64,000 nucleotides of DNA, taken from NCBI RefSeq assembly GCF_900110435.1, contig NZ_FODT01000005.1, forward strand, positions 1 to 64,000, in the 5' to 3' direction. How positions within the stretch are numbered: position 1 is the stretch's first letter; each line of letters starts with the position of its first letter. The position numbers and the translations under genes are program-made. Under the pieces are notes generated by a model that did no database searches, was not told where the DNA came from, and was given only the letters and a program-made list of their open reading frames with translations. This document shows positions 422 to 28,361 of this stretch, piece after piece. This DNA comes from Rhodopseudomonas pseudopalustris. Lineage in GTDB: Bacteria > Pseudomonadota > Alphaproteobacteria > Rhizobiales > Xanthobacteraceae.

Positions 422-3400
422 ATGGCGCGCCTAGAGGATCTTCAGCCGAGTGCATCTGTTCGCGGCATTCTCCCTAGCGGACTAGCTTCCGTTGTCAGCG
501 TGCAGTGGTTTGGATCAGAAGCGCTGGAACTGACGTACAAAGATGCGGCTGGCAAAGTCGCTAACGAATTACTCTATCGGTATGACGAGCCTCGCATCGA
601 AATCGTCGAACAAGGGCAACCCTGGAGCTTTGATGGCGATGGCGCTTTATTTCGCCTCGTTTCAGAAGCCCAACGCATCCGCTTGGCTCATCTATTTGAT
701 CCAGTGTTAGCCGTTCACACGTCCGTTGTTGATCCGCTTCCCCACCAAATCACTGCGGTCTATGAATCGATGTTGCCTAGGCAACCTCTAAGGTTCCTGC
801 TGGCCGACGATCCGGGCGCGGGCAAGACAATTATGGCTGGATTGTTGATGAAAGAGCTAATTGCGCGCGGCGATCTTCAGCGTTGTCTCGTCGTGTGCCC
901 AGGAAGTTTGGCCGAGCAATGGCAGGACGAACTGTACAAACGTTTCAATCTGCCCTTCGAGATATTGACCAACGATAAGCTTGAGGCAGCCCGCACCGGA
1001 AACTGGTTTCTTGAAACAAATCTCGTCATCGCCAGGCTCGACAAACTTTCACGAAACGAAGATGTTCAACTGAAATTGCAGGCGCCTGATTGCGGCTGGG
1101 ACCTGGTGGTCTGCGACGAGGCTCATAAGCTCTCGGCAACCTTCTTCGGCGGCGAGGTCAAATACACAAAGCGTTACCGGCTTGCTCAACTTCTTTCATC
1201 ACTGACACGGCACTTTCTGTTGATGACTGCAACTCCCCATAACGGAAAGGAAGAAGACTTCCAACTCTTTATGGCGTTGCTCGATGGGGACAGGTTTGAG
1301 GGCAAGTTTCGCGACGGTGTTCATGCTGCGGACGTATCCGATCTCATGCGCCGGATGGTGAAGGAAAACCTGCTCAAGTTCGATGCAACGCCGCTCTTTC
1401 CGGAACGCATCGCCTATACCGTTCCGTACAAGCTGTCTGATCACGAAGAGGCGCTCTATAAGGCGGTAACCGACTATGTACGTGAGGAATTCAATCGAGC
1501 TGAAGCACTTGAAAACGACAAGCGCGCCGGAACAGTTGGATTTGCACTGACCATCTTGCAGCGCCGACTAGCGTCTTCACCAGAAGCTATTTATCAATCC
1601 CTACGCCGCCGCCGCGAACGTCTCGAAAGCCGGTTGAGCGAGCTGGAAACCCTTCAGCGCGGGGGCCACGCTCTGGCGGCGATGAGCTCAAGTTCGGCAG
1701 CGCTAGATGCTGATGACGTGGAGGATCTCGAAGACGCGCCCGAGAATGAAATCGAGGAAGCCGAAGAGCAAGTTCTTGATGAGGCGACAGCAGCGCGCAG
1801 CATGGCGGAACTCCGCGTTGAGATCGAAACGCTGAAACGCCTAGAAGCAATGGCGCTCTCGATCCGGCGCAGCGGAGACGATAAGAAGTGGCGCGAGCTT
1901 TCTTCCCTCCTTACTGAAATCTTTACGACCGCCGCAATATCGAACCAGCTTGCCGAAGATCAAGAGCCTTACAATGCTGGCAGACCAGAAATTCCCAGAC
2001 CAGTTCCGTCGCCTCACCAGAAGCTAGTTATATTCACTGAGCATCGCGATACGCTGAATTATCTTGAAACGCGCATCGCCACGCTTCTTGGCCGCCGCAG
2101 CGCGATTGTTATGATCCACGGCGGAATGGGTCGCGAAGATCGCCTGAAGGCACAAGAGGCCTTTAGACACGATCCCGAGGTTCAAGTGCTTCTTGCAACA
2201 GACGCCGCAGGGGAGGGCATTAACCTTCAGCGCGCGCATCTCATGGTCAATTACGATTTGCCCTGGAATCCCAACCGGCTGGAGCAACGTTTTGGACGCA
2301 TCCACCGCATTGGTCAGACCGAGGTCTGTCACCTTTGGAACTTGGTCGCAGAAGGCACGCGCGAAGGAGACGTTTACCGGAAGCTTCTCGAAAAGCTTGA
2401 ACAGGCTAGGCAGTCCCTTGGGGGACAGGTATTCGATGTGCTCGGCAAACTCCATTTCGAGGGACGCCCGCTCAGAGAACTTCTGATTGATGCCATCCGG
2501 TACGGCGAGCAACCTGACGTGCGTGCGCGACTGAGTCGCGTTGTCGAGAACGCCTTCGACAAGGAAGCGATACAGGACATGCTGGAGGAACGCGCGCTGG
2601 CACACGATGCGATGGACGCCAGCCGAGTTTATCGTATCCGCGAAGAAATGGAGCGCGCTGAGGCTAGACGCCTCCAACCACACTACATTGAATCGTTCTT
2701 CCTGGAAGCCTTTCAGCGCCTTGGCGGCACCGTCAAGAAGCGTGAACCGAGTCGTTTTGAAATCACCAACGTGCCGGCCCCCATCAGGAACCGAGACCGG
2801 CTGATAGGCATTCGTGAGCCCGTCCTCCCAAGATATGAGCGCATCGCATTCGAAAAAGGCCTGATCGCTCCCCCCGGACAACCTCTCGCGGCCTTCATTT
2901 GCCCCGGGCACCCCTTGCTCGATGCCGCCATAGATCTGACTCTCGAACGTCACCGCGACTTGATGCGCCGTGGAACGATCCTTGTCGATGAGCGAGATTC
3001 GAGCACCACTCCGCGGGTCTTGCTCTATTTGGAGCACGCCCTTCAGGATGCCAGTCTCACCAAGAGCGGAGAGAGACGCGTTGTCTCAAAGCGGTTGCTG
3101 TTCGTTGAAATTGACCAGAGTGGTTCCGCCCGGCACTTGAACTACGCCCCTTACCTCGATTATCGCCCCCTCAACGACGGCGAGCCGGGTCTTGAAAAAA
3201 TTCTAGCGCGGCCCGAGTGCCAGTGGATTAGCCGAGATTTGGAAGTGCGCGCCCAGGGCTACGCGATCGCTCACGTTGTTCCCGAGCACGTAACAGAGGT
3301 CCGGACGCGTAAACTAGAGCTTCTCGATAAGACAGAGGCAGCCGTCAAGGACCGGCTCACCAAAGAAATCAATTACTGGGACTTTCGCGCGGAGCAACTT

Positions 3401-4009
3401 AAAGAGCAGGAAGCCGCCGGCAAGGTCAACGCACGCGTCAATTCCGGCGAAGCACGTAAGCGCGCAGATAATCTTCAGGGTCGGCTGGAGAAGCGGATGG
3501 ATGAGATCAAGCGCGAACGCCAGATTTCACCGTTGCCGCCCGTTGTGCTTGGAGGCCTATTGGTCATACCCGGCGGGCTCATTGCAGCAATGGAGGGAGC
3601 TGCAATTTCAAGGGTTTCTTCGCCTGTTGACACACAGGCTGCCGCCGCTCGGGCCCGGGAAATCATTATGGAAATCGAGCGCGGACTTGGCTTCATTCCG
3701 GTCGACCGAGAGTTTGACAAGCTTGGCTACGACATCGAAAGCGCCATTCCCAATACAGGCCGCCTCCGCTTCCTTGAAGTGAAGGGGCGCGTGTCGGGTG
3801 CCGCGACAATAACGGTTACGCGGAACGAAATTCTCTATTCTCTCAACAAGCCGGACGACTTTATCCTCGCCATCGTTGAATTCTTCGATGGTGGAACGCA
3901 CAAAGTTCACTACGTTCGCCGCCCATTTCAACGCGAGCCGGATTTCGGCGCTGCGAGCGTGAATTATGAGTTCAAGGAGCTGTTGGCCGCCGCGGAGCAC
4001 CCTAGATGA
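422..4009 (+). CDS. SNF2/DEAD-family helicase with C-terminal DUF3883
   Basis: This 1195-residue protein is a superfamily 2 ATPase. Walker A (DDPGAGKT) sits near residue 133, the DEAH box near 232, the TATPHNG motif III near 275, and the second RecA lobe ends with GEGINLQ and RFGRIHRIGQ near 625. The last 120 residues match DUF3883, with GYDIES followed by FLEVKGR, which resembles the D...ExK layout of PD-(D/E)xK nucleases. The ATG at 422 is preferred over an in-frame GTG at 410 because relatives begin MARLEDL. It is the first gene of a four-gene operon and its TGA overlaps the next ATG. Expected role is ATP-driven DNA translocation or remodelling in anti-phage defence. That role is inferred from the family and neighbours. 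Confidence 0.85.
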   Translation: MARLEDLQPSASVRGILPSGLASVVSVQWFGSEALELTYKDAAGKVANELLYRYDEPRIEIVEQGQPWSFDGDGALFRLVSEAQRIRLAHLFDPVLAVHTSVVDPLPHQITAVYESMLPRQPLRFLLADDPGAGKTIMAGLLMKELIARGDLQRCLVVCPGSLAEQWQDELYKRFNLPFEILTNDKLEAARTGNWFLETNLVIARLDKLSRNEDVQLKLQAPDCGWDLVVCDEAHKLSATFFGGEVKYTKRYRLAQLLSSLTRHFLLMTATPHNGKEEDFQLFMALLDGDRFEGKFRDGVHAADVSDLMRRMVKENLLKFDATPLFPERIAYTVPYKLSDHEEALYKAVTDYVREEFNRAEALENDKRAGTVGFALTILQRRLASSPEAIYQSLRRRRERLESRLSELETLQRGGHALAAMSSSSAALDADDVEDLEDAPENEIEEAEEQVLDEATAARSMAELRVEIETLKRLEAMALSIRRSGDDKKWRELSSLLTEIFTTAAISNQLAEDQEPYNAGRPEIPRPVPSPHQKLVIFTEHRDTLNYLETRIATLLGRRSAIVMIHGGMGREDRLKAQEAFRHDPEVQVLLATDAAGEGINLQRAHLMVNYDLPWNPNRLEQRFGRIHRIGQTEVCHLWNLVAEGTREGDVYRKLLEKLEQARQSLGGQVFDVLGKLHFEGRPLRELLIDAIRYGEQPDVRARLSRVVENAFDKEAIQDMLEERALAHDAMDASRVYRIREEMERAEARRLQPHYIESFFLEAFQRLGGTVKKREPSRFEITNVPAPIRNRDRLIGIREPVLPRYERIAFEKGLIAPPGQPLAAFICPGHPLLDAAIDLTLERHRDLMRRGTILVDERDSSTTPRVLLYLEHALQDASLTKSGERRVVSKRLLFVEIDQSGSARHLNYAPYLDYRPLNDGEPGLEKILARPECQWISRDLEVRAQGYAIAHVVPEHVTEVRTRKLELLDKTEAAVKDRLTKEINYWDFRAEQLKEQEAAGKVNARVNSGEARKRADNLQGRLEKRMDEIKRERQISPLPPVVLGGLLVIPGGLIAAMEGAAISRVSSPVDTQAAAARAREIIMEIERGLGFIPVDREFDKLGYDIESAIPNTGRLRFLEVKGRVSGAATITVTRNEILYSLNKPDDFILAIVEFFDGGTHKVHYVRRPFQREPDFGAASVNYEFKELLAAAEHPR

Positions 4010-7000
4010 GTGCGCAACCGGCTTACTTCGAGGCCATCAGAAAGAAGGCTGCAAGTCGATGGGACCAGCTAGAACAAGACCCGGAATTGGCCGGGCCGTG
4101 GTATCAGCTCTTCAGTCAGGTTCAAAGCCCTCGGCATATACTCTCTGAACTTCTCCAGAACGCCGATGACGCTGGTGCGAGCGAAGCATCCGTTCGAATT
4201 GAGGATGATGCGTTCGTTTTCGAGCACAACGGCGAGGATTTTGCGCCCGAGCATTTTGCTTCACTTTGTGGGTTTGGCTATTCCAACAAACGTGCGCTGC
4301 ACACAATCGGGTTTCGGGGGATCGGATTCAAGAGCACGTTCAGTCTCGGCGAGACTGTGGAGCTCTTTACGCCGTCTCTCGCCGTTTGTTTTCAGCGGCG
4401 GCGTTTCACCGAGCCGCACTGGCTTTTAGAGAAGGCCGCCACGGGAAATCTGACACGGATCCGGGTCAGGCTCAGCGATCAAAAGCGCAGAAAGGAAGTT
4501 GAAAAAAATCTTGATGAATGGCTCAAGAGCCCCGTCTCCCTTCTCTTCTTCCGGAACGTACGATGCATCCATATAGCGGGGAGCGAGGTCCGCTGGGGGA
4601 GCCTAGGTCCAGGCCCGATTCCCGACAGCGAGTGGATGGCCCTATACGATAAGCAAGATGACGCCTATTTGCTTGTCCGTTCGCCCGATGAACCGTTTCC
4701 TGCGGACGCGCTTGCAGAGATTCAGCAAGAGCGCATGGTTGGAAGCGGCGACAGCTCAGAGTTCCCCCCGTGCAAGGTTGAGATCGTTCTTGGAGCCAAG
4801 GGCCGACTATATGTCGTGCTCCCGACCGGAGTTGAGACCGGTTTGCCATTTGCATGCAACGCGCCCTTTATCCAGGACCCTGCTCGCGTCAAAATCAAAG
4901 ACCCTGAGATTTCACCGACCAATCGATGGCTGCTTGAACGAGCTGGCAAGCTGGCCGCTTCTGCAATGCTCACGTGGGTCAGAGATGCAGACGCATCGAT
5001 CGCCGAGCGCTCGCGTGCTTACCGCTTGCTGCCAGATGTCAATCGGGAGGATAACTCGCTTGAAGGTGTGTGCGGCACCGCTGTCGAAGAATCCTTTGCC
5101 GCGGCGATTGAGGGCGTCTCATTTCTATTGAGCGAAGATGGAAGCCTTGTACCGCAAGGCGATTGTACAGCCATTCCGGGCCCTCTCTTTGATGTCTGGT
5201 CCCCAAAGCAAGCGGTGTCTCTGCTTGATGAAACTGGCCGTCCGGTTCTCGCCCGGCATGTGGAAATCGGCGACCGGCAGAAAATGGTTCGCTGGGGTCT
5301 GGTCGAGGAAATTGACAAGCAAAAGCTTCTCACAATCCTCAAGAGCAAGCATCTGCCAAGGCCTGACACCTGGCGACAACTAATGAACCTGTGGGCCTAT
5401 ATCACACCAGATATTGCTGGTTATCGCTACTTTGCAAATCCAGAAGACGTTCGCATTGTCCCTGTTCAGGGCAAGGATGTGCTCTATGCCGCTAGTGAAG
5501 TTGTGCGCCTCGGCGAAAAGAAGCTTCTGCAGTCGGACGACGATTGGGAGTTCTTGGCGTCACATTTGCTTGTCCTGAATCAAAACTGGCCGCGCTTTCT
5601 TGCCGAAGAACGCCGCAATGCGGTGGAAAAATCGGACGCCTTGACGCGAGAAGCCGTCGAACGGACCTATAACGTCCTAAAGACAATCGGGCTCGACGAC
5701 ACCAGCGACGTGAACAGAGTAATCGATCAGGTCGCGCAGGGAGTGTTTGCCGAGAAAAGCGTTCCCCTGAAGGGCTGCGTTCAGCTGGCGCAAATTGCGG
5801 CGAAGCTTGGCACCAGCGTCACGGAGGCGTTTCGTTTCGCAACGAGAGACAGGCGGCTCAGGGCTATAAGCTCGCCAATTTACTTTGACGAAGATGGAAA
5901 GCTCGAAGATCTCCTGCCCGATGAGCAACTTGAAACAAACGTTCTCCATCCAGACTACACGTCGACATTTCATTCATGTTCGAGTGAAGACTGGCAGAGA
6001 TGGGTTGCTTCCGGCCGCGCCGGGCTGCTTACGTTCGTTCCACTGGTCCAGAGCGATATGCGCCTTTTTGGAAAACGCGCAATTGAACAAGAAGCCCGCA
6101 AACGCGGCCACCATGCCGAGATGAACTATCCATACGTTACTCATGAATTCATCATTGAAGATTGGGATTTCGAGAGTGATGTATGGAGCCATTGGCGTAA
6201 ACTTGCTTCGCAAGATGAAGTGCTGTGGTGCAAAGTTGTAGATCGCCTGATCGCGCAGCGCGATTCTTATTGGAGTTCAGCCAAGAGCGCCCGTTTCCTT
6301 CAGGTTGCAACCACGGGCCGAAGACAATCCATCACGCATCTTCAGGCTATGCCGTCATGGTGCCTTCGCCTTCGAGAGTTGCCATGCCTATCTGATAGCC
6401 GGGGTTTTCGCCGCCGACCCGACGAGCTTCTGAGACGCACGCACCAAACAGAAGCGCTGATGGATGTCGAACCATTTGTTCACGCACTCCTTGATCGGGA
6501 GACAACGCGTCCTTTGCTCGATCTGCTGGGAGTTCGGAGCACGCCGACCGGACCCGATGGGATGTTGGACCGCTTGCGCGCAATTTCTAAGGCCGAAAGG
6601 CCTCCGATCCATGAAGTCGATAAGTGGTATCGTCGCCTTGACCAGTTGATCGAAACATGCTCCTCGACGGACCTTTACAGGATTAGGCAGGCCTTCCGGA
6701 CGGAGGCGCTGATCTTCACGCAGGAAGGCGCATGGACGAGTGCCACTGCCGTTTTTCTTTCGTCCAATGATGATGACGTTCCTGAGGCCGCTGTCATACG
6801 ACAGTCGGTCACCGATCTCACGCTTTGGCGAAAGATAGGAATTGCCGAACGGCCGACAGCTGAACTCGCCATTGCATGGCTGGAGACGCTGCCTTCCGGC
6901 AAAGTACTCTCTCAAGAAGATGCACGGCGCGTGGGAGCCTTGTTGGTCCGATACCCGATCCGAATATTAGATGAATGCAAGCATTGGCTGAGCCTTGCGG

Positions 7001-8214
7001 GGGGATGGGTTCCGTTTGAACAACTGTCCTACGCGCTCACTATGCAATCCCTGACCGCCTGGAGCCATTTGCATCAATGGGTAAAGGTAAAAACGGCAGA
7101 CTTCCGCCGTTTGCCTGTGGAGGTGACCAGCAACGCTCCATTTTCTGAGCTTCCCTCTCTCGTAAGCCGCGTCGAAGAACGCCTTCACCGCGAACTGTTC
7201 CCATGCGCTGCGCCAGAGCACAAAGAATGGCTTGCCGTGCTTGGCGAAGAGTTGCTCCGGGTAGAATTGGAGCGGGACGACGAGACCCAACGGGTTCGCG
7301 CATTGGCGGTTGCCCTTGCCGAAACCCAATGGCATACGAAAGATGAATTGGAGATCATTCCCTACATCGGCGGCACGCCTGCGGGAACGCCCCGAAAGGC
7401 TGATGTGGTTTGGCTTGGTCGCGCATTGTATGTCGGTAACCAGCCGCTGGCGAAGCTCGCACGACGCGTTCCCGAAGAGGTTGGAAAAGCCTTCGGCCGT
7501 CCGGACATTAAGGCTGCTCTAGACTACAGCTTTGAACGATCTCCTCCGGATATACGCGACTACCTCCAAGAAAATTTCATTCTGGCACCCCGCGCCGCAG
7601 AGCCAGCAGATCCTGTAAACCCGTTAGACGACCAGCAGCCTGAGCGTCCAAGGCCGGACTTACATCTTGAGCCGCCTACTGAAGCCGCGAACACGAACCA
7701 GCTCGACAATGAGAACGTTATTGTTGAATTCAATGGTGGCGAGGAGCCCTTCTCAGAAAAAGAGGGCGATGCGTTGGCGAGCGACACTGTAGCGGAGACG
7801 CCTGAGTTGCGTCCGCGACACGCGCCAAAACCGGCCAGGCCGAGCCTGATTGAGCGCTTCGCTAAGGCCGAAGGGTTCAAGAAAGATGGAGAAGAGCGTT
7901 TCTTTCATGAAAACGGAAGCTGGATCGGTCGAGCCGAAGGTTCGATTTTCCCCTGGGAACTACGGAATCGCTCAGGTGACTTGGTTCGAACCTATCTCCC
8001 GATACCGTGGTGTCTTGAGCGCGACCCTTTGGAGATCAAAGCTGAAGTTTGGGGATTGCTAAATCAGCACCCAAACACTTACTCGCTGATCGCAACACGC
8101 CCTGACGACTCACCCACCGAACTCACCGGAAACGCGCTGTTGGAATTGCTCCGCGCTGGTAGGGTGAACCTGTTTCCTGCGACTTATAGGCTAGTTCATG
8201 ACGCTGCAGAATAA
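4006..8214 (+). CDS. Sacsin-like GHKL ATPase, 1402 aa
   Basis: The N-terminal 150 residues carry the Bergerat (HSP90/GHKL) ATP-binding fold: the N-box ELLQNADDAGA near residue 50, then FEHNGEDF and GFRGIGFKS, a layout typical of sacsin-like ATPases. The middle 1000 residues have no motif I recognise. A low-complexity, acidic and proline-rich linker around 1190-1275 leads to a compact C-terminal domain (about 1275-1400) rich in Trp and Arg. Its start overlaps the helicase stop by four bases (ATGA) and its end overlaps the methylase start by 17 bases, so the three are translationally coupled. Large GHKL proteins next to DUF3883 helicases are known from defence islands. The biochemical role is not established. 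Confidence 0.8.
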   Translation: MSAQPAYFEAIRKKAASRWDQLEQDPELAGPWYQLFSQVQSPRHILSELLQNADDAGASEASVRIEDDAFVFEHNGEDFAPEHFASLCGFGYSNKRALHTIGFRGIGFKSTFSLGETVELFTPSLAVCFQRRRFTEPHWLLEKAATGNLTRIRVRLSDQKRRKEVEKNLDEWLKSPVSLLFFRNVRCIHIAGSEVRWGSLGPGPIPDSEWMALYDKQDDAYLLVRSPDEPFPADALAEIQQERMVGSGDSSEFPPCKVEIVLGAKGRLYVVLPTGVETGLPFACNAPFIQDPARVKIKDPEISPTNRWLLERAGKLAASAMLTWVRDADASIAERSRAYRLLPDVNREDNSLEGVCGTAVEESFAAAIEGVSFLLSEDGSLVPQGDCTAIPGPLFDVWSPKQAVSLLDETGRPVLARHVEIGDRQKMVRWGLVEEIDKQKLLTILKSKHLPRPDTWRQLMNLWAYITPDIAGYRYFANPEDVRIVPVQGKDVLYAASEVVRLGEKKLLQSDDDWEFLASHLLVLNQNWPRFLAEERRNAVEKSDALTREAVERTYNVLKTIGLDDTSDVNRVIDQVAQGVFAEKSVPLKGCVQLAQIAAKLGTSVTEAFRFATRDRRLRAISSPIYFDEDGKLEDLLPDEQLETNVLHPDYTSTFHSCSSEDWQRWVASGRAGLLTFVPLVQSDMRLFGKRAIEQEARKRGHHAEMNYPYVTHEFIIEDWDFESDVWSHWRKLASQDEVLWCKVVDRLIAQRDSYWSSAKSARFLQVATTGRRQSITHLQAMPSWCLRLRELPCLSDSRGFRRRPDELLRRTHQTEALMDVEPFVHALLDRETTRPLLDLLGVRSTPTGPDGMLDRLRAISKAERPPIHEVDKWYRRLDQLIETCSSTDLYRIRQAFRTEALIFTQEGAWTSATAVFLSSNDDDVPEAAVIRQSVTDLTLWRKIGIAERPTAELAIAWLETLPSGKVLSQEDARRVGALLVRYPIRILDECKHWLSLAGGWVPFEQLSYALTMQSLTAWSHLHQWVKVKTADFRRLPVEVTSNAPFSELPSLVSRVEERLHRELFPCAAPEHKEWLAVLGEELLRVELERDDETQRVRALAVALAETQWHTKDELEIIPYIGGTPAGTPRKADVVWLGRALYVGNQPLAKLARRVPEEVGKAFGRPDIKAALDYSFERSPPDIRDYLQENFILAPRAAEPADPVNPLDDQQPERPRPDLHLEPPTEAANTNQLDNENVIVEFNGGEEPFSEKEGDALASDTVAETPELRPRHAPKPARPSLIERFAKAEGFKKDGEERFFHENGSWIGRAEGSIFPWELRNRSGDLVRTYLPIPWCLERDPLEIKAEVWGLLNQHPNTYSLIATRPDDSPTELTGNALLELLRAGRVNLFPATYRLVHDAAE

Positions 8215-11200
8215 GATCAATAAGAAGCTGATTGAGGTGGCATTGCCGCTTGAGGCCATCAACATAGCCTCAGCACGCGAGAAATCCATCCGGCATGGGC
8301 ACCCGTCGACGCTGCATTTATGGTGGGCGCGACGTCCGCTAGCTGCAGCCCGCGCCGTCATCTTCGCTCAAATGGTCGATGACCCAACTGCTTATGTGGA
8401 TACTCTTCTTGGAGAGCCGACAACGAAGCGTGCAGCACAACGTGAATTGAAGAAACGTTTAGAGCTTTGGCAAAAGAGAACATCCGCTTTTCAGGCTGCG
8501 ACAGGAGGGGAGGTTGTTGCGGTACCAGAGCCTGGACCGAAGCCGACACTTGAGGACTGCGCGGCTGACATCGAACGCGAGCGGCTATTCGGAATCATCG
8601 AACAATTAGTCAAATGGGAAAGTACGACGAACGAAGTTGTACTCGATCGCGCCCGCGCCGAGATCTGGCAAAGTTGGCGAAGGACGTGCGCTGCAAATGC
8701 TGATCATCCTCGCGCGAAAGAACTATTCGATCGCAATAGGTTGCCAGCATTTCATGATCCTTTTGCAGGTGGGGGAGCTTTGCCATTGGAGGCGCAAAGG
8801 CTTGGCCTGGAGAGCTATGCAACGGACCTGAATCCAGTCGCCGTAATGATCAACAAAGCTATGATCGAAGTTCCTCCAAAATTCTCCGGAAATCCCGCTG
8901 TCAACCCGGAAGCGAGGAAGGAAGCAAAGCATGGGGAGTTGCGCAACTGGCAAGGCGCACAGGGACTTGCGGAGGACGTGCGATACTATGGTCGCTGGAT
9001 GCGCGAAGAAGCAGAAAAACGGATTGGTCATCTCTATCCCAAGATTGAAGTTTCGGCAAAAATGGCGGCCGTAAGGCCCGACCTCAAGGTATTTGTAGGA
9101 AGCAAACTTACTGTAGTCGCTTGGCTTTGGGCGCGAACGGTGAAGAGTCCGAATCCGGCTTTTGCAAATATAGACGTGCCGCTTGTATCCAGTTTCATCT
9201 TGTCACCAATGACCGGGAAGGAAGTCTTCATTGAACCAGTAATTCATGGCGACAGCTACACCTTCGTAGTAAAAGTCGGAAAGCCTAAAGATGCCGACGA
9301 AACGAAGCTTGGTACAAGTGCCGGAAAGCGTGCGGCATTCCGTTGTATTATGTCAGACGTCCCAATTGGATACGATTACATTCGAGCCGAAGGCAAGGCG
9401 GGCCGAATGGGCACCCGGCTCTTAGCTGTGGTTGCGGAGGGCGACAGAGGTCGCGTCTATCTTTCCCCAACGGACGACGTAGAGGCTATCGCCCGATCGG
9501 CCGTCCCAACTTGGCGACCTGAAGTCGATTTGCCTATCAATCCCCGTGACTTCAAGACGCCAAATTACGGACTAGATACCTTTGCGGATTTGTTCACTCC
9601 ACGTCAGCTTGTCGCGCTAACGACATTTTCGGATTTGGTCCGCGAGGCACGGGCACTAGCCTTGGTTGATGCTCAAGCAGTAGCGTTGTCAGAAGACAAT
9701 AGATCGCTTGCAGAAGATGGTGTCGGCGCGGCCGCCTACGCGGACGCAATCTCCATTTATCTCGGGTTTCTCGTAAGCAAGCTCGCGGACAAAGGGTCGA
9801 CTCTTTGCACGTGGGATGCAGGTCCTTCATCCAACAAGACGGCGTCCGGTCGGTCTGCACGCGTTGCAACTGTACGTGTCACGTTCGGTCGGCAGGCTCT
9901 TCCAATGGCGTGGGATTTTGCTGAGGTCAATTTCTTCAGTGATTCCGTTGGCAGTACTGATACCGTTCTTAAAACCCTTTGCGTGCCGCTGGATTATTTT
10001 TCGCGAAGTGCGCGTGTCGGCTACGCTAACCAGGCTGATGCACAGAGGCAGCGTGTCAGTCAGTCGAAGGTAATTTCGACCGACCCCCCTTACTATGACA
10101 ACATTGGATATGCTGATCTTTCGGATTTTTTCTATCTTTGGTTACGCCGCACGCTCCAGCCTGTCTTTCCCGATCTCTTCAGCACACTTGCCGTTCCGAA
10201 AGAACAAGAGTTGGTCGCGACGCCATATCGCCACGGTAGTAAAGAAAAGGCCGAAGCGTTCTTCTTAGAGGGAATGACGCAGGCTATGAACGGGCTTTCG
10301 ACTCAGGCCCACCCAGCTTTTCCGACGACGATATATTACGCCTTCAAACAATCTGAAACAGATGGAGCTGACGGTACAGCCAGCACTGGGTGGGAGACGT
10401 TCCTCGACGCGGTGATTCGTGCCGGGTTTGAACTAACCGGTACATGGCCCGTTCGAACTGAACTCGCAAATCGAATGATTGGATCAGGCAGCAACGCGCT
10501 GGCGTCAAGCATTGTGCTCGTGTGCCGTCCGCGTTCCCTAAGTGCAACTACTGCAACCCGACGTGAGTTTATGAACGCATTGAAAGCAGAACTTCCAACT
10601 GCGTTGGCCCACCTCCAGCGCGGAAACATAGCACCCGTCGATCTAGCACAAGCATCGATCGGACCAGGCATGGCTGTCTATACGCGCTATGCGAAAGTAG
10701 TCGACGCGGAGGGTAATATTGTCACCGTGCGTGAAGCGCTCGCACTGATCAATCAAACTCTCGATGAGGTGCTTGCCGAGCAGGAAGGTGATTTTGATGC
10801 TGATAGTCGATGGGCCGTCGCGTGGTTTGAGCAGATGGGGTTTGCCGAAGGTGATTTCGGAATCGCAGATGTGCTCGCGCGAGCCAAAGTGACGGCTGTT
10901 GCCGCGCTTGCACAGGACGGGTTTGTCGTCTCCAAAGGTGGCAAAGTGAGATTGCTAAGACCTTCCGAGCTCTCAACCGATTGGGACCCTGCTACCGACG
11001 ATCGGTTAACAGTCTGGGAAATGGTTCACCACCTGATCCAAGTCTTGGAGTCGAGCGGTGAGACGGCCGCAGGAGAGCTCGTTGCGAAGCTCGGAGCAAA
11101 AGCGGAGGTTGCGCGTGAACTTGCTTATCGTCTTTACACAATATGTGAGCGAAAGAAACGGTCGCCAGAGGCGCTTGCATACAATGCCCTCGTTCAAAGC

Positions 11201-11287
11201 TGGCCAGAAATCAACCGGCTAGCGCGGGATAGTGCGGTAGCCACGGGCGAGGCCTCCGCTCAATCCGAAATGTTTGGGAGGGCCTAG
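8198..11287 (+). CDS. DUF1156 adenine-specific DNA methylase
   Basis: This 1029-residue protein starts with the DUF1156 signature, including [20 protein letters not shown], and carries the SAM-binding motif [13 protein letters not shown] near residue 187. The catalytic motif DPPYYDN near residue 628 is the (D/N)PPY form used by N6-adenine methyltransferases. The long spacing between the two motifs is normal for the COG1743 family. It probably modifies host DNA so that the helicase/ATPase partners spare it. It lies two bases upstream of the DUF499 ATPase and overlaps the previous gene. The target sequence cannot be read from the protein. Confidence 0.88.
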   Translation: [1029 protein letters not shown]

Positions 11288-11289
11288 TC

Positions 11290-14200
11290 ATGGCAGTTAC
11301 GAATCAGGAACGCGTCGGAAAGGCTCTTGATCTCCTCAAGGCGGGACTTCGGCCCTTTGTCGAACGCGAGATGAATTCGAAGTTTGGTGCAAAGTGGCCT
11401 TCGGAAGCGCAGGACATTTTGCGCGATACGCGCCTCGGCACCAGCAAGGGAGACGTGCTCCAGGACGTTTCGGTTCAGCTTGTGATCATGGATCGGAAGT
11501 GGGCGGATGTATTCCGCAACACCCTTGGGAAAGCAGAGCGCAGTCTCATCAATGAATTGATTGATATTCGCAACCGCTGGGCCCACCAACAGCCGTTTAC
11601 AAGCGATGATGCTGACCGTGCGCTCGATTCCATGGCGCGATTGCTAACGGCGATCTCTGCTCCTGAAGCCGACGAAATCGGCAAGATGAAAATGGAGCTG
11701 CGGCGACTTATCTTCGACGAGCAGATGCGCTCCGAGCGCCGCAAGGGAGCCGGGACCGCTATTGAAAGCCAGGTTACCGGCAGCCTTAAGCCATGGCGCG
11801 AGGTCGTGAATCCGCACAAGGATGTGGCCAGCGGACGTTACCAGCAAGCCGAGTTCGCCGCCGATTTGTGGCAGGTTCATATTGGCGAAGGATCGGACGA
11901 ATATCGCAACCCGGTTGAATTCTTTCGGCGGACTTATCTCACTCATAGCTTAAAGGAGCTTCTTGCAGGCGCGATGCGGCGCTTGACGGGTAATGGCGGT
12001 GACCCGGTTGTTCAGCTTCAGACAAACTTTGGTGGCGGCAAGACGCATTCAATGCTGGCGCTTTATCACCTGTTCTCGGGGACCAAGCCAGGTGACCTTG
12101 CGGGGATCGATCCGGTTCTGGCAGACGCGGGCATCGGGAAGCTGCCCGAACACGTGAAGCGCGTGGTGCTTGTCGGCAATAAGATTTCGCCGGGTAATCC
12201 GTCGGTAAAAGCGGATGGCACGATCGTCAAGACTTTGTGGGGTGAATTGGCATGGCAATTGGGCGGCAAACCTGCCTTTGATAAAGTTCGCGCTGACGAC
12301 GAGCGGGCTACCAGTCCCGGGGATACTCTCCGGGAACTGATGAATGCCTATGGCCCTTGCCTCATTTTGATTGACGAGTGGGTGGCCTACGCGCGCCAAC
12401 TTCACGACGATTCCGATCTCCCGGCCGGGAGCTTCGAAACGCATTTCTCGTTCGCACAAGCGCTGACCGAGTCCGCCAAGCTTGCCAACCACTGCCTCTT
12501 GGTTATCAGTCTGCCGTCATCGGACACCGCCATATCCCCACATGCACAAGGCGACGACGAGGAAGTTGGAGGCGCGCGCGGGCGCGCAGCACTCGCCCGC
12601 CTTCGCAATGTGATCGGGCGAGTTGAGTCGTCCTGGGCGCCAGCCAGCACCGAGGAAGGATTCGAAATTGTCCGCCGCCGGTTGTTTGAGCCTTTGATCG
12701 AAAAGGTTCAATTCGTCGCTCGTGACAGCATTGCGCGATCATTTTTTGATCTGTACCGGACGCAACATCAGGAATTCCCGCCGGAGTGCCGCGATTCAGA
12801 CTATGAGAACCGGCTGAAGGCCGCTTACCCAATTCACCCCGAAGTCTTCGACCGCCTCTATACGGATTGGTCGACCCTTGTGAAGTTTCAGCGAACACGC
12901 GGCGTCCTTCGGCTTATGGCGGCTGTCATCCACAGTCTTTGGGAAAAGGGCGATCGCAATCCCCTAATCATGCCCTCGAACATACCCATTGACGACCCAC
13001 GCGTTCGCGACGAGTTGACCCGGTACTTGCCCGATCAGTGGAAACCCATCATCGAAAAAGACGTTGACGGGCCGAATGCCTTGCCGTTGCGGATCGACGG
13101 CGAAGTACCAAACCTCGGCAAATTTGCTGCGTGCAGGCGTGTTGCGAGGACCATTTACTTAGGATCAGCCCCTACTTCAAAAGCTGCCAACCGCGGCGTC
13201 GAGGATCGGCGTATCAAGCTTGGCTGCGTGATGCCGGGTGAATCACCCGCTGTGTTTGGCGATGCCTTGCGGCGCTTGAGTTCGTCCGCGACGTTCCTAT
13301 ACCAAGATGGCGCTCGTTATTGGTATTCGACGCAGCCGACTGTGACAAAGCTGGCTGAAGATCGCGCAGAACAGCTAAAACGTAATACCGATCCGGTCGT
13401 AGCAGCGATTGAAGAGCGGCTGCGAACTGACTTACGGGTAACCGGGGATTTCCGCCGCATTCACCCCGTTCCGCACTCCGGTGCCGACGTGCCCGATGAT
13501 ATGGAGGCACGGCTTGTCGTGTTGGGGATCGATCACCCCTACAGCAAGGACGCTGCCAACAAGGCCCAAGCTGCAGCGATTGAGATCCTTCAACAGCGCG
13601 GTAGCGGACCCCGTATTTTCCAGAACTCACTGGTATTTTTGGCGATCGATCAAACTCGCCTGCAAGACCTCGATGAGTCGGTCCGGCGATATCTCGCCTG
13701 GTCCTCCGTACTCGATGAGAAGGATGGCCTCAACCTCGATCCCCACCAGGTTAAGCAGGCCGAGACACAGTTGAAAGCGGCGGACGGAGCAGTGGTCGCG
13801 CGGCTTCCCGAAGCCTATCAGTGGCTCCTCGTTCCCGTGCAGCGCACGCCGCAGGACCCATTGCAATGGCAAACCTTCCGTTTGACTGGACAGGATGGCC
13901 TTGCCGTGCGCGCAAGCAAGAAACTTCGCAGCGAGGAATTATTTGTTCCATCATTGGCAGGCACACGGCTCCGGATGGAACTCGACCGCGTTCCGCTGTG
14001 GCGGGGAAATCATGTTCCAGTGAAACAGCTAGCGGAGGACTTTACGCGCTATGTCTATCTGCCACGCCTGCGTGACCCGGCTGTCCTTACATCTGCAATT
14101 CAGGACGGGCTTGGCCTGCTTCTTTGGTACCAAGAGTCGTTCGCTTACGCGGATGGATTTGACGAAGCGACCGGGCGGTATCGTGGCTTACGTTGCGGCC

Positions 14201-14640
14201 AGCGTGTCGATGTATTTCATGATACCGGCGACGGCTTAATTGTTCGAGCAGACGTCGCGCTTAAGCAACAAGAAGCAGACGTTGCAAGCGCAAGACCCCC
14301 AACCAGCACCGGAGTGGGGGCAGCCGGAGCGCTGAACAAGGACAGGGAAGCCGATCCCGGCGTCCAAACCACAGGCGCGGGTATCTCGCCCACGATGCCT
14401 TTGAAACCGCAGCGCTATTTTGGAACTGTGGCTCTAGATGCCTCCCGGGTTGGACGAGATGCGGGTCGTATTGCTGAAGAGGTCATCGCACACCTTTCGG
14501 GGCTAGTGGGATCTGAGGTAACAGTTACTTTGGAGATTGAAGCGAGAGTGCAGGGCGGCGTCCCGGACAACGTTGTGCGAACGGTCACAGAAAACAGTCG
14601 CACATTGAAATTCAAAAACCACGGATTTGAGAGCGAATGA
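11290..14640 (+). CDS. Swt1-type HEPN plus DUF499 AAA ATPase
   Basis: The protein is 1116 residues. Residues 1-115 form a Swt1-like HEPN domain with the RNase-type motif R94-x4-H99 (RNRWAH). Then follows the DUF499 (COG1483) ATPase, with Walker A (FGGGKTHS) near residue 250 and Walker B (LILIDEW) near 360. The C-terminal part (about residues 1040-1116) resembles the small end domain seen in this family. DUF499 ATPases are recurrent partners of DUF1156 methylases. The HEPN domain could be an effector RNase or only a structural scaffold. The gene begins two bases after the methylase stop and closes the operon. Confidence 0.85.
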   Translation: MAVTNQERVGKALDLLKAGLRPFVEREMNSKFGAKWPSEAQDILRDTRLGTSKGDVLQDVSVQLVIMDRKWADVFRNTLGKAERSLINELIDIRNRWAHQQPFTSDDADRALDSMARLLTAISAPEADEIGKMKMELRRLIFDEQMRSERRKGAGTAIESQVTGSLKPWREVVNPHKDVASGRYQQAEFAADLWQVHIGEGSDEYRNPVEFFRRTYLTHSLKELLAGAMRRLTGNGGDPVVQLQTNFGGGKTHSMLALYHLFSGTKPGDLAGIDPVLADAGIGKLPEHVKRVVLVGNKISPGNPSVKADGTIVKTLWGELAWQLGGKPAFDKVRADDERATSPGDTLRELMNAYGPCLILIDEWVAYARQLHDDSDLPAGSFETHFSFAQALTESAKLANHCLLVISLPSSDTAISPHAQGDDEEVGGARGRAALARLRNVIGRVESSWAPASTEEGFEIVRRRLFEPLIEKVQFVARDSIARSFFDLYRTQHQEFPPECRDSDYENRLKAAYPIHPEVFDRLYTDWSTLVKFQRTRGVLRLMAAVIHSLWEKGDRNPLIMPSNIPIDDPRVRDELTRYLPDQWKPIIEKDVDGPNALPLRIDGEVPNLGKFAACRRVARTIYLGSAPTSKAANRGVEDRRIKLGCVMPGESPAVFGDALRRLSSSATFLYQDGARYWYSTQPTVTKLAEDRAEQLKRNTDPVVAAIEERLRTDLRVTGDFRRIHPVPHSGADVPDDMEARLVVLGIDHPYSKDAANKAQAAAIEILQQRGSGPRIFQNSLVFLAIDQTRLQDLDESVRRYLAWSSVLDEKDGLNLDPHQVKQAETQLKAADGAVVARLPEAYQWLLVPVQRTPQDPLQWQTFRLTGQDGLAVRASKKLRSEELFVPSLAGTRLRMELDRVPLWRGNHVPVKQLAEDFTRYVYLPRLRDPAVLTSAIQDGLGLLLWYQESFAYADGFDEATGRYRGLRCGQRVDVFHDTGDGLIVRADVALKQQEADVASARPPTSTGVGAAGALNKDREADPGVQTTGAGISPTMPLKPQRYFGTVALDASRVGRDAGRIAEEVIAHLSGLVGSEVTVTLEIEARVQGGVPDNVVRTVTENSRTLKFKNHGFESE

Positions 14641-14951: not shown

Positions 14952-15602
14952 TCACTCGACCGACCCGTCCTCACGCTTACCGGTCGCGATGATGCGAAGG
15001 GATGCATCGGGCAGGGGCCGTTGCAGCTTCGGGATGTCTGCCGCCGGAGCTGTGAGCCATGCGTCGATTTCGACCTCGGTGCGAAGGATGACCGGCATAG
15101 CTTTGGGATGCACCGCGCCAACCTCTGCATTTGCATCTGTGGTCAGGAAGCCAAACAACTGATGTTCGCCTTCAACCGGATTGGCCTTGGTACCACGCGT
15201 ACCGTTCCACGGCGTCCAGATTCCGGCAAAGACCGCGAGCGGACGCCTCTCGTCGAAGGCGAACCAGCTTGGCGTCTTCTTGGGTTTGGTGTCCGCGTAT
15301 TCGCAGAACGACGTGAACGGCACGACACAGCGGTTCGCCGGGTTGAGCCAGCGCCGCCAATGCAGGCTTTTGACGTTACGGATGTTCGTGACTGGCGCAC
15401 CGCCAAATTGCGGGGGACCCGGCATCCCCCATCGCGCCATCGCCAGTTCGCGTACGCCGTCGGTGGCGTTGCGCACCACCGGAGCCAGATAGTCCGGAAA
15501 TACGCCGGGGAAAACCGGAAGATTGCCAGTGATGTCCCGCATGGCGCGCGTCAGGGCAATGATCGCGGCCTGTCCCTTGGTAAGGCTGTAGAGATTGCAC
15601 AT
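14952..15602 (-). CDS. SOS response-associated peptidase (YedK/HMCES family)
   Basis: The 216-residue product starts MCNLYS, which puts the catalytic Cys2 at the N-terminus after Met removal; this fixes the start at 15602 rather than the longer frame. Other family residues are present: the Asn of TNIRN, the Glu of FCEY, and the His of AVHPKAMPVIL. HMCES proteins crosslink to abasic sites in single-stranded DNA and shield them. Such genes are common in mobile elements, where single-stranded transfer intermediates occur. A near-match to the LexA operator lies upstream at 15647-15661. Confidence 0.9.
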   Translation of the reverse strand: MCNLYSLTKGQAAIIALTRAMRDITGNLPVFPGVFPDYLAPVVRNATDGVRELAMARWGMPGPPQFGGAPVTNIRNVKSLHWRRWLNPANRCVVPFTSFCEYADTKPKKTPSWFAFDERRPLAVFAGIWTPWNGTRGTKANPVEGEHQLFGFLTTDANAEVGAVHPKAMPVILRTEVEIDAWLTAPAADIPKLQRPLPDASLRIIATGKREDGSVE

Positions 15603-15646
15603 GCGGCCATTGTAGGCGAAGCCCAAATGCTTAGGACAGCATTACC

Positions 15647-15661
15647 GTTCAAAAGCTGTCC
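15647..15661 (-). promoter_or_regulatory. Imperfect LexA-box-like site
   Basis: On the minus strand the sequence reads GGAC-N7-GAAC, one base off the alphaproteobacterial LexA operator GAAC-N7-GAAC. It lies about 45 bases upstream of the SOS-associated peptidase start. It overlaps a 7-bp inverted repeat (GGACAGC / GCTGTCC at 15634-15661), which could instead be another operator. Confidence 0.35.
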
Positions 15662-15804
15662 CCTTGCGAGGCGGAATTCTGGTTCCTATATTAACAACAA
15701 CAGCTTCGGGGGTGGGTGTCGGCGCAAATCCGACCACATGGTTTGTTGCGGTCGCCTTTCTGACAATGGTTCGCTTTTGGATCGACAACAGAAAGGAGGC
15801 CTCT

Positions 15805-15963
15805 ATGAGAACAACGAAAACTTGCCGCAAGGCGCATGTGAAACTTGGTTTACTTCGAACAATGCTCGCTTTTAGTGAAACGCTATGGGCGATCGCAACG
15901 AACGTAGTGGCTGGGTTTGTGACCCCTCCCATCCATTGGAAAGGCGCTCCCGGTAACGGTTGA
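15805..15963 (+). CDS. Small membrane-type protein, 52 aa, unknown
   Basis: A very strong ribosome-binding site (AAAGGAGG) sits five bases before the ATG at 15805. The 52-residue product has a basic N-terminus (MRTTKTCRKAHVK) and then a mainly hydrophobic stretch from LGLLRTML to VVAGFV that could span the membrane. The stop codon lies inside a hairpin that looks like a terminator. The good start signal and immediate terminator suggest a real small gene. I do not recognise the product. Size and layout would fit a small toxin or leader-like peptide, but nothing proves that. Confidence 0.5.
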   Translation: MRTTKTCRKAHVKLGLLRTMLAFSETLWAIATNVVAGFVTPPIHWKGAPGNG

Positions 15964-15971
15964 GCGCCTTT
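15940..15971. terminator. Bidirectional hairpin terminator
   Basis: AAAGGCGCTC (from 15940) pairs with GAGCGCCTTT (to 15971) around a 12-base loop, with T-runs on the plus strand and the matching A-run for the minus strand. It can end the small ORF on the plus strand and, less directly, readthrough from the TcmP gene on the minus strand. Confidence 0.7.
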
Positions 15972-16059
15972 TCCATCTTGGGCGCACGTTCTCCCCTGCG
16001 GCAGGCTGTCATGGCCGCGGCACATTTCGGTAGTCTGCCGGGCATTCGAGTAGGCAGGC

Positions 16060-17208
16060 TCAAGGCCGTTGAACCCGGTAGTCGGCCTGCGGGACCTGTT
16101 TTCGCAGCTCCCAATCTGGAAAGATGAGCTTGCCTTCCTTCCTCAGACGAGCCGTAATCCTGTTTACGTCAGTCTTCCTCACAACGCATTGCGCGAGAAT
16201 CAGCGGCCAAAGCTTCTTGTAAAGAATTGCATTGGGTGCGGTCGGAGTGAATTCCAGAAGCAGTAATTCCGCCTTGCTGCGATGCTCTGCAAGAAGTGGC
16301 GCAACTTCTTCGGAGTTCATATCGTTCAGCGACTGGAATAGTTCAGTTTGTCCAGTCTTTTGCTCAGCGTGGTCTATCTTAGTAAGCCCGCGGGTGATGG
16401 ATTGTGTCTCCAACGCCTTCACTTGGCAATCGCGGAATACTTCGAGGCCCGTCTCATGTCGCGTTGCATAGAATAGGCAATATAACGCTCGGTCCTTAAG
16501 CGGCCTTAGAATTGTGGTCTCGCAAACATGGGCATAGCCTCCCGCCTTCTTCAGGCATTCGCTGAACGTATCGGTCAGGATTGCCTTCCGTTCCTCGGCG
16601 TTATGCGCCCCGTCCAACCGGGTGCGCCAGTCGCCAGATGGGATGAGTTCATCCAATCCAGCAACGATGTTTGCATCCTTCATACTTGCAGCACGGTTGA
16701 TAAATTCAAACATAAAATTGAAAATGATTTCCGATTTCGGCCGTGTCAGCAACGGTTGCAATTTTTTTAGCGGGATGTGCCAACCTTTCGGATCAATCAG
16801 GAAGAAGGCAAACGCATCGTGCGGTATGTCTTTTAAGATAGTCGGAATTAGTTCGATGAAGTCTCCCTTGTAAGGCTTGACTGCGATTTCAGGAAATTTG
16901 GAAGGGAGCGCCTGAAGCTTGCTGAACGCGGTTGAATTACGTTCGACAAGCAGGGCCGTCATCTGAACATCTCTTCCTCTTTCTTTCCAAGAAGCTTTTG
17001 CCCTGCGCAATTTGTCAAGGGCAATGCCGAAGGATGTGTCCTTAAAATCTTCGTTCGCGCTCTGCCACGGGCCTGCAAACCCGTCTACGTAAACGATTTT
17101 CGGATATGCGCTTGCTGTCTTGTGGATCAGGGCCTCAAGATATTGCTCAAGAAGTACGTGCTTTACGTAAGATTGCTCGCGCCCTTTGTAATCTTCAAAG
17201 GAAACCAT
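16060..17208 (-). CDS. Three-Cys-motif partner protein TcmP
   Basis: This 382-residue protein matches the TcmP family: the N-terminal SFEDYKGREQ region, a Rossmann-like motif (YVDGFAGPW) near residue 50, and FFLIDPKGW near 145, which resembles an SAM-dependent methyltransferase core. The start at 17208 lies one base after the TAA of the DUF5131 gene, so the two are coupled; a longer in-frame start would overlap DUF5131 heavily. TcmP genes are nearly always paired with a three-Cys-motif protein. The pair's reaction is not known to me. The operon carries a LexA operator. Confidence 0.85.
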   Translation of the reverse strand: MVSFEDYKGREQSYVKHVLLEQYLEALIHKTASAYPKIVYVDGFAGPWQSANEDFKDTSFGIALDKLRRAKASWKERGRDVQMTALLVERNSTAFSKLQALPSKFPEIAVKPYKGDFIELIPTILKDIPHDAFAFFLIDPKGWHIPLKKLQPLLTRPKSEIIFNFMFEFINRAASMKDANIVAGLDELIPSGDWRTRLDGAHNAEERKAILTDTFSECLKKAGGYAHVCETTILRPLKDRALYCLFYATRHETGLEVFRDCQVKALETQSITRGLTKIDHAEQKTGQTELFQSLNDMNSEEVAPLLAEHRSKAELLLLEFTPTAPNAILYKKLWPLILAQCVVRKTDVNRITARLRKEGKLIFPDWELRKQVPQADYRVQRP

Positions 17209-17209
17209 G

Positions 17210-17959: not shown

Positions 17960-17970
17960 GCCCAACTCTA

Positions 17971-17985
17971 GAACAAATAAAGAAC
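17971..17985 (-). promoter_or_regulatory. Perfect LexA (SOS) box upstream of DUF5131-tcmP
   Basis: The plus strand reads GAAC-AAATAAA-GAAC, which is GTTC-N7-GTTC on the coding strand and an exact match to the alphaproteobacterial LexA operator. It ends 11 bases upstream of the ATG at 17959. A repressor bound here would block transcription start. This predicts DNA-damage induction of DUF5131 and TcmP. Confidence 0.75.
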
Positions 17986-18133
17986 ATAGCACAGGGGAAT
18001 TTATCCCCCAAGCCAAAAATCCCAGTCGCAACGAATAGGGCAAAGGAAGCGTGGGAGAAAGGTGGGGCCTTTCGCGCTGACTTGGAGGTCTGTCCTTTAG
18101 TGAGTCCGCTGAGATAGCCTTCGAAGCCTCTTG

Positions 18134-19913: not shown

Positions 19914-20091
19914 ATCGCCCCCCATCCATCTGAAACAAATTGGTATTTCGAAAAATCTGCGTCGTGCGCGGCACGTCCTGCCGAATGAATCCTACAGGGC
20001 TCTGGAATCTCCCGTAAAGAGTCGAAACCGTGAACAGACTAAGAAATTCTGTTTCGTCGGTTTTGGGGTGGTAGCAGAGTCCCGAAGTTGA

Positions 20092-21912: not shown

Positions 21913-21924
21913 AGGAGTCCCAAC

Positions 21925-28351: not shown

Positions 28352-28361
28352 GGGGGACGCC

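Follow-up and report, generated by a model that had tools for sequence, protein, structure and literature searches.

A sacsin-like GHKL ATPase gene in the hmaA-hmaB slot of an Hma (Type-1 BR) operon of Rhodopseudomonas pseudopalustris

The window analyzed here, the whole of a 64,000-nucleotide stretch of Rhodopseudomonas pseudopalustris DNA (contig NZ_FODT01000005.1, positions 1 to 64,000), begins with four intact open genes on the plus strand, which a check of the open reading frames places at 410/422-4009, 4006-8214, 8198-11287 and 11290-14640. Their products comprise 1199 (from GTG 410) or 1195 (from ATG 422), 1402, 1029 and 1116 residues, respectively; the ATG at 422 is the likelier start of the first gene, because the HmaA profile match begins at residue 5 of the GTG-410 version. 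The original prediction of four large same-strand genes with overlaps of 4 and 17 bases followed by a gap of 2 bases is exact to the base. Three of these genes constitute an Hma system, and the second, which is the primary concern of this work, codes for a sacsin-like ATPase of the GHKL superfamily (hereafter the GHKL protein) inserted between hmaA and hmaB. The features of the operon are as follows, with L and G numbers denoting compared loci and genomes:

422..4009 (alternative GTG start 410), plus strand: hmaA, SNF2 helicase with a C-terminal NOV_C/DUF3883 PD-(D/E)XK-type nuclease domain (PADLOC, Pfam, motifs)
3650..3913, plus strand: NOV_C (DUF3883) domain of HmaA, residues 1081-1168, with the D...ExK motif (Pfam)
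4006..4009, plus strand: overlap of hmaA and the GHKL gene, 4 bases, with the same -4 spacing in L012, L014, L015, L016, L018 and L055
4006..8214, plus strand: sacsin-like GHKL ATPase gene, 1402 residues, in the hmaA-hmaB slot (NCBIfam P_loop_sacsin, TmtA, orthologues, fold matches)
4147..4173, plus strand: N-box of the GHKL protein, ELLQNADDA, identical in 14 of 15 aligned rows (L019 lacks that end)
4309..4335, plus strand: G2 motif of the GHKL protein, GFRGIGFKS, kept in 14 of 15 rows with an I/V change in L020 (L019 lacks that end)
7843..8205, plus strand: C-terminal alpha/beta domain of the GHKL protein, about residues 1280-1400 (predicted model)
8198..8214, plus strand: overlap of the GHKL gene and hmaB, 17 bases, the same in 11 of the 14 loci holding both genes
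8198..11287, plus strand: hmaB, DUF1156 DNA methylase (PADLOC, Pfam, motifs)
11290..14640, plus strand: hmaC, Swt1-type HEPN domain fused to a DUF499 ATPase (PADLOC, Pfam, motifs)
11320..11658, plus strand: HEPN_Swt1 domain of HmaC, with the R-x4-H motif RNRWAH (Pfam, motif check)

The three Hma components are recognized by both PADLOC and Pfam profiles. HmaA covers the whole of model PDLC00659 (1718 bits), matches SNF2-rel_dom, Helicase_C and NOV_C, and displays the motifs DDPGAGKT, DEAH, RFGRIHRIGQ and GYDIES...LEVKG. HmaB matches PDLC00660 (1516 bits) and DUF1156, with DPFAGGG at residue 187 and TDPPYYDN at residue 628, and HmaC matches PDLC00662 (1160 bits), HEPN_Swt1 and DUF499, with FGGGKTHS and LIDEW. 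The domains named in the original prediction, namely those of an SNF2/DUF3883 helicase, a DUF1156 methylase and a HEPN-DUF499 protein, are thus all present, and its suggestion of a restriction-like system of the Hma type proved sound. A helicase, a DUF1156 methylase and a DUF499 ATPase on one strand form the gene set of Hma, also termed the Type-1 BREX-related (BR) systems. Like the helicases of that type, HmaA couples an SNF2 module to a C-terminal PD-(D/E)XK domain and is a predicted nuclease, with the ExK retained in 39 of 39 aligned rows and the preceding D in 38 of them, while HmaB combines its DPPY-type motif with a middle region that is hypervariable among its relatives, as expected of a Type-1 BR methylase. 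The catalytic motifs examined in all four window proteins are intact; sequence comparison found no solved structure matching HmaB, HmaC or the GHKL protein. Of the suggested relation to DISARM only a distant kinship stands: the NCBIfam DISARM_DrmD match attains 358 bits against a cut-off of 610, for which DISARM was dropped, and HmaA matches DrmA at 216 bits, well short of what it scores as HmaA; no drmA, drmB or drmC product was found in a scan limited to the proteins of the operon. Two further assignments were set aside, Type-2 BR for want of DUF3780 among the Pfam matches of the four proteins (most of the remaining window was not scanned), and BREX for want of PglZ/BrxZ among the same matches, with no dedicated search elsewhere.

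The N-terminal region of the GHKL protein is a sacsin-type ATPase domain: the label given originally is upheld by the NCBIfam profile P_loop_sacsin (74.7 bits, cut-off 50), while Pfam SACS falls slightly short (29.1 against 32.8). Fold searches with a model of residues 1-1000 gave matches with E values of ~1e-4 or below to Hsp90/TRAP1, which ranked best, to MutL and, in 21st place, to sacsin SR1. The PADLOC model PDLC03968 belongs to TmtA of Tiamat, which is taken as a single-gene, self-sufficient defense system. We had considered this match to be confined to the ATPase end, an idea rejected upon finding a second co-linear stretch: residues 41-372 align with model positions 74-409, and residues ~784-965 with positions 828-1015 of 1486, the total being 183 bits, of which the second stretch contributes 55, in a library without a curated cut-off. 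The two co-linear stretches therefore make the GHKL protein a distant relative of Tiamat beyond the ATPase region. At the other end, the C-terminal domain is modelled with a predicted local distance difference test (pLDDT) score of 74-91 in most 10-residue blocks, and its Foldseek matches are largely endonuclease-like folds, none of them significant. A hidden NOV_C-like nuclease at this terminus was entertained and dropped: compared as profiles, the terminus and the NOV_C region of HmaA match with a probability of 0.3%. No relative of the GHKL protein was recovered from the viral contigs searched, and among 50,697 phage records a single one has an N-terminal match, at 26% identity.

Scanning 84,980 species genomes by pattern uncovered 11 loci with relatives of the GHKL protein; Bradyrhizobium barranii (represented by two records from a single strain) and Niveispirillum came from plasmids, and G497 and a decayed copy in G139 from genome searches. 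In total, orthologues with 46-59% identity occupy 16 distinct loci including the window, mostly in Alphaproteobacteria, as judged from record titles, with one in an acidobacterial metagenome-assembled genome (MAG). Thirteen are of full length; the others are truncated (L016), cut by a contig end (L019) or bear an in-frame internal deletion of 490 residues (L055). The gene hmaA lies upstream in all 15 loci with sequence on that side, with small genes intervening in L013, L052 and L054, and hmaB lies downstream in 14 of the 16; in L014 no hmaB follows within the 2.9 kb to the contig end, and L016 lacks the end of the GHKL gene, hmaB and most of hmaC. Where the overlap of exactly 17 bases with hmaB is not seen, the junction is a 16-base gap (L020) or a gap of 500 (L063) or 950 bases (L021) holding another gene. 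Recurrence at such GHKL identities in other bacteria places the arrangement beyond chance, and the check on co-occurrence proposed with the original prediction was thus passed. As all 16 orthologues found are in Hma loci or their remains, rather than standing alone as a Tiamat-type gene would, the GHKL protein looks dedicated to Hma on the evidence of gene neighborhoods. In a phylum-wide sample GHKL matches occurred in 7 of 299 genomes, the only orthologues being the window's own and that of G139, and of 10 matching plasmid records all except H7 were examined. L054 and L073 are one replicon with identical operon DNA, and the operon of G815 is identical to that of the Niveispirillum plasmid. 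We also observed identical or near-identical HmaA proteins in L012, L016 and L018, which come from Sphingomonas, Sphingobium and a MAG, a likely case of recent transfer of hmaA judging by the sequences.

To place the GHKL gene among all Hma loci, 397 genomes of the order and 385 of the class Alphaproteobacteria, two partly overlapping samples, were surveyed. HmaB scored above 500 bits in 23 of these; G392, G714 and G947 have hmaA off the contig, leaving 20 readable hmaA-hmaB junctions. Four of these hold a GHKL gene (one decayed), five are empty (-29 to +17 bases), one retains a remnant of 188 bases (L065) that by eye resembles a slot gene seen elsewhere, and ten hold other sequence of 594-2013 bases. 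By comparison, the hmaB-hmaC junction measures 20 bases or fewer in 17 of 17 readable loci with both genes intact. The contents that could be named are PtuA and PtuB of Septu (L056), HEC-07 (L062) and DUF4917/PDC-S21 (L064); similar ATPase-HNH pairs occur in L072 (by eye) and in the plasmid locus L083 (by annotation), and a Gloeocapsa plasmid carries a PARIS-like AriA/AriB pair within its Hma operon (L085, 6196-8572). The nameable contents elsewhere match defense models. Many of the proteins encoded in these junctions lack a Pfam match: 7 of 10 in one scan, HEC-07 among them, and 5 of 10 in another. The plasmid loci L082, L085 and L089, outside the set of 20, have extra genes between hmaB and hmaC; plasmid records matching HmaB number 179, of which 63 cover 80% of HmaB, and 9 of the latter, hand-picked for variety, were examined. 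Hence, the hmaA-hmaB junction is a slot of interchangeable modules: Septu, PARIS-like, HEC-07, DUF4917, GHKL or one of several unnamed genes. The GHKL protein had been put forward as a core component; it is instead one of several occupants of this variable slot, and Hma does not need it. Other slot genes are small (L013 8503-9483, L052 13606-14974, L060 7699-8532, L064 7713-8687, L054 11471-11962 and L063 8852-9352) and include an ASCH-like protein, with one weak sub-cut-off Pfam match, and an unmatched family of ~163 residues (FAILAPVPLEHL...); their products are possibly readers of modified bases.

The history of the slot was traced with an HmaA tree of 37 rows, built by a quick method and subject to a long-branch warning, from which fragments, contig-cut loci, the duplicates L053 and L073, and the distant or broken L068, L070, L080 and L088 were left out. 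In this tree the window groups as sister to L056 (support 90), a locus of the same family whose slot holds Septu, and next to this pair lie L020, with a GHKL gene, and L081, with a gap of 37 bases. Presence of the GHKL gene changes 7 times over the tree (shuffled mean 11.6), at least 4 of the changes being forced by well-supported branches. In the GHKL tree, by contrast, L014 and L020 are separated from the window and the alphaproteobacterial copies with support of 100/100, a long-branch warning attaching to the joining of L014 with L020. Approximately unbiased tests rejected the union of the window and L020 on the GHKL data (p = 4.8e-4), and that of the window and the alphaproteobacteria on the HmaA data (p = 1.8e-5). 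The conflict between the trees indicates that the GHKL gene has moved between Hma backbones. L020 preserves a scar of slot insertion (9726-9900), a frameshifted 142-base copy of the 5' end of hmaB directly after hmaA and before the GHKL gene, about 89% identical (127 of 142 columns) to the complete hmaB ~4.6 kb further along; from this scar we infer that, in the lineage of L020, the GHKL gene entered an operon in which hmaB directly followed hmaA.

Comparison of closely related operons separates the methylase from the other three genes. Between L011 and L015, and between L011 and L063, the HmaA, GHKL and HmaC products are 94-99% identical, as against 59% and 75%, respectively, for HmaB, with identity falling to 28-68% in windows of its middle. 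Over 5 pairs the synonymous divergence (dS) is 0.06-0.92 for the GHKL gene, 0.04-0.74 for hmaA and 0.07-0.80 for hmaC, and 1.5-2.7 or not estimable for hmaB. This pattern suggests that the recognition part of hmaB has been swapped among otherwise near-identical operons; apparent exchange of its alleles by recombination fits HmaB as the carrier of that part, and the methylase would be exchanged independently of the slot content. Such hmaB alleles, varying in the middle of the protein, are seen in the near-identical operons of L011, L015, L017 and L063. By these measures the GHKL gene is evolving with hmaA and hmaC and not with hmaB and target recognition. Its ratio of nonsynonymous to synonymous divergence (dN/dS) of 0.09-0.19 over the 5 pairs shows that the protein is in use.

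Beyond Hma, distant GHKL relatives were detected in 5 genomes of the phylum sample and in 7 plasmid records, the latter as weak matches over 8-26% of the protein; none of the 6 plasmid loci examined has a DUF1156 or DUF499 annotation, and in 3 of the 6 a helicase gene is directly upstream. We also noticed a two-gene operon (L091 20-6837, L092 3038-9702, L094 372-4939) in which an SNF2 helicase with an N-terminal HEPN_Swt1 domain, identified by Pfam in L091 and L094 and by 64% identity to L091 over that region in L092, overlaps a sacsin-type GHKL gene by 4 bases, with neither methylase nor DUF499; the L091 helicase is DrmD-like, and the GHKL products share about 25-37% identity with that of the window over the ATPase end. 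Other combinations observed are a helicase gene with, directly after it, the gene of a distant sacsin-type GHKL protein of ~1040 residues on Rhizobium and Ensifer plasmids (L098 1696-8036, L100 1767-8087), with no DUF1156 or DUF499 annotated nearby, and a UvrD-PD-(D/E)XK helicase-nuclease adjoining a sacsin-type GHKL protein with a C-terminal NOV_C domain (L095 5185-11193).

These comparisons establish the orthology and position of the GHKL gene, the conservation of its ATPase motifs, the purifying selection on it and the history it has in common with hmaA and hmaC but not with hmaB; its partners, trigger and output we infer as follows. On balance, we lean towards reading the locus as an anti-phage, restriction-modification-like Hma operon with a dedicated accessory GHKL ATPase that would act with the effector arm. 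A DPPY-type methylase motif favors modification at N6 of adenine. The literature and motifs make HmaB the putative enzyme marking host DNA, probably at N6-adenine, and HmaA a likely helicase-nuclease attacking unmarked DNA. PADLOC labels HmaB an m5C (5-methylcytosine) enzyme (PMC8565338), and a 2026 survey an N6-adenine enzyme (PMC12839542). HmaC, whose DUF499 ATPase is related to BrxC, might assemble or scan, with its HEPN domain serving as a fallback RNase. The GHKL protein, comparable to Hsp90, MutL and MORC, could be an ATP-gated clamp or switch working with HmaA and the HEPN domain of HmaC, not with target recognition; it might be the link by which recognition leads to cleavage, or else a sensor that answers a blocked or failing attack by setting the backup response free. 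We propose a switch of this arm because of the history shared with hmaA and hmaC, because the nameable slot contents are defense modules, because the HEPN motif is found in 12 of the 12 GHKL-bearing loci with a readable HmaC N-terminus, and because distant GHKL genes overlap those of HEPN-SNF2 helicases.

Several observations weigh against this proposal. The HEPN motif also occurs in 19 of 30 rows without GHKL, and 6 of the 11 HEPN-free rows form one HmaA clade, the other 5 being absent from that tree; the GHKL-HEPN link is for these reasons a weak one, and a statistical association between the two was dropped, as the rows behind 12/12 and 19/30 are not independent. The two-gene operon is sparse, its GHKL protein being found in 3 of 78 genomes of its order, and the GHKL frame of L094 has merely 325 residues. 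The scatter of GHKL-bearing loci on the HmaA tree means that the rest of Hma works without the protein, and the GHKL-bearing locus L052 has G in place of the D of the HmaA nuclease motif. For a putative HmaA-GHKL contact the pointers are gene order and shared history, the structure models of the GHKL protein are poor overall (pLDDT 58-60), and neither fold nor profile searches with its C-terminal domain gave a significant match (best Foldseek E 0.05). Finally, kinship with Tiamat may leave room for the GHKL protein defending by itself.

This last point leads to the main rival of a dedicated accessory, namely an independent single-gene system of the Tiamat type nested in Hma as cargo, as Septu is, and working alone. 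We regard this as possible, though distinctly less probable: the co-linear TmtA match over two stretches speaks for it, as does the presence in the slot of systems in their own right (PtuAB in L056, HEC-07 in L062, the AriA/AriB pair in L085) and the movement of the gene between backbones. Discovery of the second TmtA stretch led us to raise our estimate of it a little and to lower that of a dedicated accessory by as much. What it fails to predict is that none of 16 orthologues should lie outside Hma loci or their remains, a count to be read with the caveat that the searches favored close relatives and that distant ones do occur outside, and that the gene should share the history of hmaA and hmaC and keep a fixed overlap with hmaB. 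A role as a client-specific sacsin/Hsp90-like chaperone, for the large Hma proteins or for silencing the HEPN domain, with no part in the attack, strikes us as unlikely. It would accommodate the Hsp90/TRAP1 and SR1 fold matches, the union of such ATPase modules with HEPN in animal sacsin (PMC3710099) and the restriction of orthologues to Hma loci; against this, most Hma loci examined lack the gene and have equally large proteins, and since GHKL ATPases, MutL among the fold matches included, serve as DNA clamps too, the fold does not decide the question. That the gene is a useless passenger kept by close linkage is highly improbable: two orthologues have decayed (L055 and L016), but in both loci hmaB and hmaC are likewise truncated or not found, and the purifying selection elsewhere, over ~1400 codons, nearly refutes it. 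We are thus inclined to retain the dedicated accessory, whereby Hma would gain a fourth protein of a class not reported for it in the survey texts. A wider conjecture, which we rate as rather improbable, is that a sacsin-type ATPase and a HEPN RNase are an old recurring defense pair which bacteria would couple to SNF2 helicase-nucleases, in which the Hma-slot ATPase would gate the passage from a blocked attack to HEPN-mediated shutdown, animal sacsin being a domesticated form. Recurrence of the pair gives a way of approaching sacsin, the protein behind a human ataxia, through bacteria.

The operon was also predicted to lie on a mobile element, and this is supported by conjugation and recombinase genes, an end at a tRNA-Asn gene and a shift in G+C content. 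The remainder of the element is:

14952..34859, no strand given: rest of the carrying element (Pfam, tRNA, G+C)

After the operon, Pfam identifies SRAP, DUF5131, ArdC, a TraG-type coupling protein, MobA/L, a second relaxase and a serine recombinase, the end of which overlaps the tRNA-Asn gene (34818-34892, minus strand; region 33279-34892). The G+C fraction is 0.52-0.58 at 1-18 kb and 0.61-0.67 past 34 kb. The element's other end should be recognizable by a second copy of the tRNA-Asn end; none was found in the genome at up to 2 mismatches. As the window starts at a contig end, any upstream regulator of the operon is out of view; bases 1-110, directly upstream of hmaA, resemble by eye the end of a transposase gene. 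Loci of the alphaproteobacterial clade have a WYL regulator gene immediately before hmaA, whether or not they carry GHKL. The element also carries an ArdC-type anti-restriction gene (21925-22824, plus strand) alongside the restriction-like operon, and, at 16060-18043 on the minus strand, a DUF5131 gene overlapping one with a weak match to PADLOC PDC-M30A (46 bits).

PADLOC introduced the name Hma in 2021 for a system found at 1,638 loci of three genes and often accompanied by Septu (PMC8565338); the fusion of HEPN to DUF499 beside an SNF2-DUF3883 helicase had been noted in 2013 (PMC3710099), and the methylase-DUF499-helicase set was described in archaea in 2020 (PMC7641849). The 2026 Nucleic Acids Research survey treats Hma as the Type-1 DUF499-centred BR system, present in 2446 taxa, 1370 of them with the HEPN-DUF499 fusion, lists PD-(D/E)XK, HNH, HKD, TOPRIM/OLD, HEPN, PIN and Schlafen nucleases in or beside BREX and BR loci, and cites one report on a related helicase-nuclease (PMC11232893, as cited by PMC12839542). 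The main text of the survey, supplements apart, contains none of the terms GHKL, sacsin, HSP90, MORC and chaperone, consistent with the earlier suspicion that the window holds a version unlike those described. A full-text search, with subscription papers mostly outside its reach, returned no title or abstract opening that names a gene of sacsin type within Hma. The single mention of sacsin in PMC8195603 is as a protein fused to TRADD-N domains, and the terms DUF499, DUF1156, SNF2, sacsin and HEPN are all absent from PMC8011034.

Set against these systems, the window has the HmaA, HmaB and HmaC models, the helicase with NOV_C and the HEPN-DUF499 fusion of Hma/Type-1 BR, and differs from it in having the gene for the sacsin-like GHKL protein of 1402 residues in the slot. 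Like Tiamat, it has a very large protein with a GHKL ATPase of sacsin type, aligned over two co-linear stretches, but the window-type protein is found within Hma loci and not as a lone gene. MORC-type GHKL proteins occur with an SF2 helicase, nuclease and methylase and were proposed in 2008 to form DNA loops joining the recognition site to the site of cleavage (PMC2292703); by description, MORC and paraMORC resemble the window in a GHKL ATPase encoded beside such partners and differ in that sacsin has no mention in the available text. VcSduA, a Shedu protein with an N-terminal GHKL ATPase proposed in 2025 to control the attached nuclease (PMC12137116), likewise joins a GHKL ATPase to phage defense and nuclease control; it is however a single protein with its own nuclease domain, and Hma genes are not mentioned in the text available. 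Among published models, those for MORC and for this Shedu protein come closest to the switch proposed here. Animal sacsin combines ATPase modules and a HEPN domain in one chain (PMC3710099), which the window distributes over two proteins, with no ubiquitin-like or DnaJ domain among the window Pfam matches. The two-gene operon of L091, L092 and L094 resembles the window in that an SNF2 helicase gene runs, with a 4-base overlap, straight into a GHKL gene of sacsin type, and in its HEPN_Swt1 domain. The GHKL-bearing Hma is thus new as a variant that the survey texts do not describe, of a system that is already known.

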